From the NCBI RefSeq assembly GCF_029338395.1, contig NZ_CP119809.1, positions 3,348,001 to 3,412,000 on the forward strand: a stretch of 64,000 nucleotides of DNA, in the 5' to 3' direction. Shown piece by piece: positions 2,003 to 4,034 of the stretch. Under the pieces are notes generated by a model. The model did not search any database and had not been told where the DNA came from. It saw nothing but the letters and a program-made list of their open reading frames with translations. Origin of the DNA: Halorussus caseinilyticus. GTDB taxonomy: Archaea > Halobacteriota > Halobacteria > Halobacteriales > Haladaptataceae. Position numbers and translations under genes: made by a program. Each line of letters opens with the position of its first letter. Positions within the stretch are counted from its first letter, which is position 1.

Positions 2003-3439
2003 TCAGTCCTCGATTTGAGCGTTGACGGCGTTCTCGATACCGCTGATGAGCATCGTCAGTTCCTCGTTCGAGGCCGTGATGGTCTCCATGCCGTTGGACA
2101 CCTCCGCCATGTCGCTCGCCGCCTCGTCTATCATCGTCGCCACTTCCTCGGAACTGACCGCCTGCTGGTCGGTCGCGTCCGCGACTTCCTCGATGCCGTG
2201 AGACACCTCTTGGATGGCCTCGCCGACCTCTTGGAGCGTCTCCATGGCGTCTTCGACGCGTTCGGTCCCGAGTTCGACGCGTTCGCTCGTCGTGCCGAGA
2301 CTGTCGATGGTGTCGTCGGTGTACTGTTGAATCTCGGCAATCATCTCTTCGATGTCGTCGGCGTGGGTCTGGGTCTCCTCGGCGAGTTCCTTGACTTCCT
2401 CGGCGACCACGGCGAACCCGGACCCGGCGTCACCGGCGCGCGCCGCTTCGATTGACGCGTTGAGTGCTAGCACGTTGGTTTGGTCGGCGATGTCGTTGAT
2501 GACCGCGACCACGTCGTCGATTCGTTCGACGTTGTCCCGGAGTTCGGCGAAGTCCGACTCGACGCTCGCACGGGCGTCTTCGACGCGGTGCATCTCCTCG
2601 ATTGCCTCTCGGGAGTGTTCGATGCCGTCCTCCGCGAGTTGTTCGGCCCGGTCGCTGACGGTGTTGACTTCCTCGGCGTTGGCCGCGATTTCCTCGGTCG
2701 CCGCGCTCAGGTCGGCGATTTCCTCGTTGAGGTCGCGCATGTTCCGCGACTGGGAGGCCGACAGCGAGTTTATCTCGTCGGCGTTCTCCGAGATGTCGGC
2801 GGTCGCCATGCCCAACTCGTCGACTGCTGGCTTCACGTCCTCGGTGAGGACTTCCCGCAACTCTTCGGCCTCGTCCGGTTCGTCCGAGTCGGCGTCTTCG
2901 GCGTCGTAGGCGTCGGCCGCGAGTTGCACGTCGCGGAACGTCGCTCGGGTCAGCGCCTGCATCCGGGTGACGGTCTCTTCGACGGCGCTCCGGACCGCCT
3001 CGTCGCCGCCGAACTCGTCGGCCACCTGCGAGACGAGTTGGTCGGCGGCCGACTCGTGAAGCGAGGCGTACATCCCAACGTGGTCGGCTAGCGACACGTC
3101 CGCCATCCGACCGAGGTGGCCGCCGCGAACTCTGTCGCGGAGCAACTCGTCGTCGTCGGTGTCGCCGCGACCGAGCATTGCGAGTTGCTCTTTCTGTGCC
3201 CGCTTGAGTTCCGCGACCGTGTAAGGGTCGTCGTCTTCCAGTTGGGGGTCGTCCACGGCCGCGTAGAGTTCCTCGACCGCGGCATCGCTCGCGGACTCGA
3301 AATCGACCGCTTCGAGACGGTCGGCGTCGTCGTCCGAGACCGAGACCAGCGTCGGTGGGCGCTCGACTTCCGCAGGCACGAACTCTCCTTCGAACTCCGT
3401 CGTGTCGCCCGCATCGGGCGAGTTGTCGTTTCGGCTCAT
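2003..3439 (-). CDS. Soluble methyl-accepting chemotaxis transducer with protoglobin-like N-terminal domain
   Basis: A 478-residue cytoplasmic transducer with no membrane segment. Residues about 45-190 match the layout of the HemAT sensor (TVAELKRAQKEQLAMLGRG, then a helix with DHVGMYASLHE). Residues about 200-478 form the coiled-coil signalling domain with the hairpin tip NVLALNASIEAARAGDAGSG and FAVVAEEVKELAEET, the CheA/CheW contact region. By position, the HemAT heme-proximal His (RIGKIHD) corresponds here to RGGHLGR, so the canonical His is shifted or lost and heme binding is doubtful. The start at 3439 is chosen because it forms a TAATG overlap with the stop of the upstream V4R-like gene, implying translational coupling. 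It probably signals to the flagellar (archaellum) chemotaxis cascade on behalf of that partner; this last point is inference. Confidence 0.88.
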   Translation of the reverse strand: MSRNDNSPDAGDTTEFEGEFVPAEVERPPTLVSVSDDDADRLEAVDFESASDAAVEELYAAVDDPQLEDDDPYTVAELKRAQKEQLAMLGRGDTDDDELLRDRVRGGHLGRMADVSLADHVGMYASLHESAADQLVSQVADEFGGDEAVRSAVEETVTRMQALTRATFRDVQLAADAYDAEDADSDEPDEAEELREVLTEDVKPAVDELGMATADISENADEINSLSASQSRNMRDLNEEIADLSAATEEIAANAEEVNTVSDRAEQLAEDGIEHSREAIEEMHRVEDARASVESDFAELRDNVERIDDVVAVINDIADQTNVLALNASIEAARAGDAGSGFAVVAEEVKELAEETQTHADDIEEMIAEIQQYTDDTIDSLGTTSERVELGTERVEDAMETLQEVGEAIQEVSHGIEEVADATDQQAVSSEEVATMIDEAASDMAEVSNGMETITASNEELTMLISGIENAVNAQIED

Positions 3440-3987
3440 TACCACGAAACCTGATAGATACACTCGTTACCGCCCGAGGCCCGACACTGGTCGCTCACTT
3501 CTTCGACGCCGACCAGTGCGTCCTCCGGACTGAACTCCTCTACGACTGCAGTGACGATGCCTCGGTCGAAATCGCAGGGATACGGATTCTTACAGAAGAC
3601 TTTCCCTTCGGAGTCACCCTCTTTCTCGAACGCGTAGTAGCCGATGTCGCCGTTTCGGTGGTTCATCTGGTACGCTTCGTTGATGGATTCGAGACCCCCG
3701 GCAACGGAGTCGATTCCCGGCGGCCAGTCGGCGTTCTCGGGAATCTTCTTGCCGACGTTCGTGACGGTTCGAGAACCGACGGAATCGACAATCGACTCGA
3801 ACGCGTCGAGATACGCCTGCTGGGGATACCACTCGTCGGGTTCCGGCTCGTCGATTCCGTTCTCCGCGAGCGTCTCCTGCATCCGCTTCTCGAAGACGCT
3901 AGAGAGGTCCCCGACGCCTGTTAACATCGAACGGACCGTCTGTCCGTTGACTTCGACGCCCTCGTCGAACGCTTCAAATTGACCCAT
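3439..3987 (-). CDS. V4R-like small-ligand sensor protein paired with transducer
   Basis: A 182-residue soluble protein ending EEVSDQCRASGGNEC-IYQVSW, the Cys-containing tail typical of V4R (4-vinyl reductase) ligand-binding domains. A second Cys pair (FCKNPYPCDFDRG) lies about 35 residues earlier. It is directly upstream of, and overlaps by one base, the soluble chemotaxis transducer, so the two are very likely co-translated and functionally linked. An in-frame ATG at 4014 would give nine more residues, but the TATA-like TTTAAATA at 4027-4034 predicts transcription starting near 4005, downstream of that codon, and a GGAGAG lies upstream of 3987; hence the shorter start. The ligand is unknown. 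Confidence 0.75.
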   Translation of the reverse strand: MGQFEAFDEGVEVNGQTVRSMLTGVGDLSSVFEKRMQETLAENGIDEPEPDEWYPQQAYLDAFESIVDSVGSRTVTNVGKKIPENADWPPGIDSVAGGLESINEAYQMNHRNGDIGYYAFEKEGDSEGKVFCKNPYPCDFDRGIVTAVVEEFSPEDALVGVEEVSDQCRASGGNECIYQVSW

Positions 3988-4026
3988 GAAGACAACTCTC
4001 CATTGCTGCGACATATATCTTACCTA

Positions 4027-4034
4027 TATTTAAA
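4027..4034 (-). promoter_or_regulatory. TATA-like box for the V4R/transducer operon
   Basis: TTTAAATA on the minus strand. At the usual archaeal spacing of about 25 bp it predicts transcription start near 4005, between the two candidate start codons of the V4R-like gene, and decides for the ATG at 3987. Confidence 0.5.

Follow-up and report, generated by a model that had tools for sequence, protein, structure and literature searches.

An overlapping gene pair of Halorussus that may encode a two-part cytoplasmic chemoreceptor

Described receptors and the Halorussus gene pair

The CetB/CetA energy-taxis receptors of Campylobacter and Magnetospirillum are bipartite chemoreceptors with overlapping genes, whose two proteins interact (PMC12442639). 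The gene pair analyzed here resembles them in that a small cytoplasmic sensor gene lies directly 5' of an MCP gene (the two overlap in Magnetospirillum). However, CetB is of the PAS-FAD type and its partner CetA sits in the membrane, whereas the Halorussus sensor has a predicted H-NOX/V4R fold and its transducer is soluble, with a degenerate globin domain of its own. Pairs of genuine H-NOX and MCP genes in haloarchaea share with it the predicted fold, the gene order, cysteines of the C138/C168/C176 type and often the overlap, but these H-NOX proteins keep the heme His and the YxSxR motif, and their partners are membrane MCPs that showed no globin domain. The zinc/cysteine redox H-NOX proteins of V. 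cholerae and C. crescentus are similar to the sensor in fold and in having a C-x7-C arrangement with an upstream Cys; they carry the heme His and have the histidine kinase HnoK as their target, while the sensor lacks the heme His and has an additional cysteine, C132. The V4R domains of MopR, PoxR, DmpR and archaeal MetOD1 offer a related fold and a cysteine cluster, zinc-binding in MopR and PoxR, but are domains of regulators or kinases, whereas the sensor stands alone beside a transducer. Finally, HemAT (Htr10) of Halobacterium salinarum is, like the transducer of the pair, a soluble protein with protoglobin and MCP signalling domains, from which the latter differs by a proximal His displaced in the window species, the loss of many conserved globin residues, and the overlap of its gene with a partner gene.

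The window of this study is the complete stretch of 64,000 nucleotides of Halorussus caseinilyticus DNA that was analyzed (contig NZ_CP119809.1, positions 3,348,001 to 3,412,000). Its relevant features, in window coordinates, are:

3439 to 3987, minus strand: sensor, a V4R/DUF2378-family protein of 182 aa with a predicted H-NOX fold (reading frame, profiles, fold prediction)
2003 to 3439, minus strand: soluble chemotaxis transducer of 478 aa (translation, Pfam)
3437 to 3441, minus strand: TAATG stop/start overlap, 1 base common to both genes (identical at both orthologous loci)
3116 to 3118, minus strand: transducer codon 108, the His of RGGHLG (position computed from the reading frame)
4027 to 4034, minus strand: TTTAAATA, a TATA-like box 5' of the pair and putative promoter element (sequence, upstream alignment)

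The sensor, a cytosolic protein of 182 aa, ends in ECIYQVSW followed by TAA, the final A of which is the first base of the transducer ATG. The coordinates and the TAATG overlap given in a preliminary description of the locus are exact, and the same TGGTAATG junction is found at both orthologous loci (L134, from Halorussus ruber, and L080). Upstream of the pair, H. ruber shows good conservation of the surroundings of TTTAAATA and of the AAGATATATGTC stretch after it, and a further Halorussus genome (G176) shows it in part. From the usual spacing of archaeal boxes, transcription would start some 17 bases before the sensor start codon at 3987; because of the position of the box, this codon is favoured over the in-frame ATG at 4014. 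Two papers report that genes with 1- and 4-nt overlaps are tightly coupled in translation and that such pairs often encode subunits of a complex (PMC6728339, PMC10666635).

We consider it likely that the two genes form a partnership. The reading that we prefer, to which we assign a probability of about one half with its specific mechanism included, is that they encode a cytoplasmic chemoreceptor in which a heme-less sensor of H-NOX fold docks on the soluble transducer.

The transducer and its globin domain

The transducer consists of an N-terminal degenerate protoglobin (HemAT-like) domain, at about residues 30-185, and an MCP signalling domain, at about residues 200-470; it is soluble and its signalling tip is conserved. 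The HemAT-like layout proposed earlier holds at the level of sequence (Pfam MCPsignal E 2e-45; Protoglobin 23.6 bits with a cut-off of 25, or 25.2 bits with neighbouring matches). It does not extend to the structural comparison: for the modelled N-domain (pLDDT 80) no match at E<0.001 to a solved globin, or to any other PDB fold, was obtained, and a globin fold is thereby neither confirmed nor excluded; a PDB sequence search with the same domain returned chance matches only.

The heme His is indeed out of its usual place in the window transducer, as had been noticed. The HemAT F-helix motif RIGK-x-H is replaced by RGGHLG, so that the proximal-His column is occupied by Gly110, two codons past His108. 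Among 36 aligned relatives of the transducer, 35 have His at the last position of G-x-x-H. These include both orthologs, which have RGGQLH, and the displaced His is therefore peculiar to the window species, where it may be a recent change. The one exception (L069:1453-2049), a further HemAT-like transducer of haloarchaea, lacks the proximal His and has GYID for GKxH. It had been suggested that the sensing job possibly moved to the partner; this is not established, and since the orthologous transducers have the proximal His at its normal position, loss of heme sensing cannot be the basis of the pair, and loss of the His was rejected as the driver of the partnership.

The same retention of the proximal His in both orthologs, together with a Tyr59 present in all three transducers and a protoglobin score near the cut-off, is what one would expect if the transducer were an ordinary HemAT-type oxygen sensor working by itself, and the upstream protein were separate or accessory (it might provide a second input or help in assembly). 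We regard this as an unlikely account of the locus, because the proximal His is gone in the window species, conserved HemAT features (WRK, the DRSTKT segment, the YL and YF residues) are either changed or absent in all three transducers, and a canonical HemAT (L073) is already present elsewhere in the genome. Judged by its sequence, the transducer is a degenerate HemAT. The approximate dN/dS is 0.22-0.38 in the sensor and, within the transducer, 0.21-0.26 in the signalling domain and 0.38-0.45 in the globin domain: both genes are under purifying selection, with the weakest constraint on the globin domain.

Occurrence of the pair and of the sensor family

Occurrence was studied in 18 genomes of the genus, in 391 genomes sampled evenly across the class, and by a contig scan of GTDB release 220. 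In the genus and class genomes close relatives of the transducer N-domain (62-65% identity) were found only in G176 and in H. ruber (G395); the next relatives, with ordinary HemATs among them, are at about 30% identity. The GTDB scan with the transducer recovered one locus, in Halorussus ruber YC25. In both G176 and G395 a sensor 70% identical to that of the window is directly upstream of the transducer with the same overlap. The pair thus co-occurs in two Halorussus genomes beyond the window, the observation whose absence would have counted against the original idea, and three Halorussus genomes in all have both genes and the same overlap. Because synteny is common to the three loci, they are not three independent observations. 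In none of the three sets searched (18 genus genomes, 391 class genomes, GTDB 220) did a close relative of the transducer occur without the sensor.

The sensor family is far more widespread, being present in 115 of the 391 class genomes, often as several paralogs (five in the window's own genome). In only 3 of 80 neighbourhoods is a same-strand MCP directly downstream of a gene of this family, these being the loci of the two orthologs, and L146; for most of the other genes the next gene is convergent. At the syntenic locus of G274 (L084) the sensor ortholog adjoins a DNA ligase gene and the transducer is absent. In the tree the L084 sensor, whose branch is long, sits among the paired sensors, the four together being supported at 91/98, and from this placement a loss of the transducer at the G274 locus is likely. 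AU tests of the three paired sensors as one clade gave p = 0.28 without the solo ortholog and p = 0.22 with L146. Since nearly all its relatives, and L084 as well, stand solo, the sensor is able to exist without a linked transducer.

These data bear on the possibility that the neighbourhood is incidental, the sensor being a cytosolic regulator of general function and the overlap a matter of compact gene packing. The nearly always solo occurrence of the family, its presence in four genomes in which no MCP is detectable (G017, G061, G098, G335), and the ortholog without a transducer at the same locus are consistent with it, as is the fact that overlapping gene pairs are common in prokaryotes according to one source (PMC6728339). 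On the other hand, the overlap persists where protein identity is down to about 70%, the transducer was never seen without the sensor, and MCPs are present in 111 of 115 carriers of the sensor family versus 215 of 276 non-carriers (a comparison that ignores kinship). On balance an incidental neighbourhood appears improbable to us. Support for a partnership comes also from another family, as at L146 (in G174) a V4R-like gene 44% identical to the sensor is directly 5' of an MCP gene. The N-terminal part of that MCP gene (L146:6311-8216) is interrupted by stops or frame changes; a test with the A1 profile gave no support for its being an ortholog of the window transducer that has decayed.

Other members of the family were noted in passing. 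In five genomes (L088, L122, L148, L150, L151) a branch of the family lies 11-32 bases 3' of a rhodanese-like gene, the rhodanese domain being confirmed only at L088. Expansions to at least 8 V4R-like copies per genome, some of them in tandem, occur in G302, G124, G174 and G346. A full-length relative, 38% identical to the sensor, is carried by a bacterial plasmid, from Leptolinea sp. HRD-7 (L165:5983-6585; AP024711.1), and a sensor copy with an in-frame TAA, for which no gene is listed, is on a plasmid of Haloarcula marismortui (L016:1501-2049; NC_006395.1, 54817-55365).

Predicted fold, cysteines and possible working of the sensor

The sensor had been called V4R-like. This description is adequate at the superfamily level: Pfam V4R matches 11 of 96 sensor relatives (best 2.7e-8) and DUF2378 matches 18 of 96 (best 7.2e-8), although the sensor itself is sub-threshold against DUF2378 (E 0.0055). 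The predicted fold, however, is closer to H-NOX. An AlphaFold model built with 96 relatives (pLDDT 92) has H-NOX domains as its closest solved structures, over the whole chain (best E 5e-6, TM up to about 0.67), versus a TM of 0.40 to the V4R protein MJ1460, and hhalign of the sensor profile against haloarchaeal H-NOX gave a probability of 84 with E 7e-6. At the level of sequence, Pfam HNOB (PF07700) matched none of the 96 family members at E 0.01, and PDB searches returned chance matches, save for a weak H-NOX match with the sensor profile. We predict an H-NOX fold over about 180 aa on the strength of these models.

The proximal His is invariant in 17 haloarchaeal H-NOX proteins and YxSxR is invariant in alignment A6; the sensor has a CxNPYPC region in place of the latter. 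That the sensor is itself a gas sensor, with heme on a conserved His110 in an H-NOX-like pocket, is very improbable: the fold prediction, the conservation of His110-Arg111 (His110 in 85 of 96 relatives) and the pairing of genuine H-NOX genes with MCP genes in haloarchaea speak for it, but the column of the H-NOX proximal His is occupied by about N103 or about M108, depending on the alignment, neither of them a His and neither at His110, and the sensor has none of the Tyr, Ser and Arg residues of YxSxR.

The four cysteines of the sensor (C132, C138, C168, C176) are all present in 53 of 96 relatives, most of the remainder having none or one. In S. oneidensis H-NOX zinc is bound by Cys139, Cys164 and Cys172 (PMC7108781); the C168-x7-C176 spacing of the sensor is that of C164 and C172, and C138, upstream of these, is aligned to the zinc Cys of H-NOX. 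Oxidation of cysteines activates the H-NOX proteins of V. cholerae and C. crescentus, in V. cholerae without heme (PMC7108781, PMC12329717). MopR-type V4R domains hold zinc by three Cys and one Glu. Since the cysteines of the sensor match H-NOX zinc cysteines whose oxidation switches known proteins, the most economical guess, by analogy, is zinc-thiol redox sensing, with a small-molecule ligand, as in MopR, as the alternative.

The two-gene chemoreceptor that we favour would then work as follows. The upstream gene would yield a small soluble sensor of H-NOX/V4R fold without heme, and ribosomes leaving it would translate the transducer through translational coupling. The sensor would dock on the transducer, with its degenerate N-terminal protoglobin domain, and its state, set most likely by oxidation or zinc-thiol chemistry of the four-Cys site or by a small ligand in the V4R pocket, would alter the signalling tip that controls CheA. 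A CheA is present in the window's genome.

A two-protein cytoplasmic chemoreceptor had been thought new. As a kind it is not, because CetB/CetA is bipartite and overlap with an MCP gene is frequent among haloarchaeal H-NOX genes, and the Halorussus pair is probably a variant of the arrangement known in bacteria. A same-strand MCP is directly downstream of a genuine H-NOX gene at 26 of the 51 haloarchaeal loci examined, most of them overlapping and that of the window's genome included; independent cases are fewer, as many loci are from related genera. In the window's genome the genuine H-NOX (PF07700 E 1.7e-30, His and YxSxR present) is a stand-alone gene followed, after a gap of 120 bases, by a membrane MCP gene (G000:C1:859702-860181; L167:1501-2034 and 2158-3480). 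A second haloarchaeal group of the H-NOX family (L199, L201, L207, L208, L210, L216) has no proximal His and is unlinked to MCP genes; several of its members lie close to genes whose products carry Tat-like signal sequences. A literature search found no paper on H-NOX in haloarchaea or on its role in taxis, although papers may exist elsewhere. That H-NOX genes often overlap genes for membrane MCPs suggests that a taxis system for NO or O2 is likely in archaea.

A fuller picture, which we offer tentatively and hold less probable than the receptor itself, is a cytoplasmic archaeal receptor in which a heme-less four-Cys sensor of H-NOX fold serves a HemAT-derived transducer with a decaying heme site, with sensing moving from the fused domain to the partner; it would be one member of a broader class of H-NOX-fold/MCP pairs in haloarchaea. 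The pair with the heme His, the pair with the His displaced, and the sensor without a transducer form a natural comparison set, suited to testing how a chemoreceptor passes sensing to a partner. If the reading is correct, a fold (H-NOX/V4R) whose best-known roles are in the bacterial sensing of NO and phenol would serve archaeal taxis, and would do so without heme.
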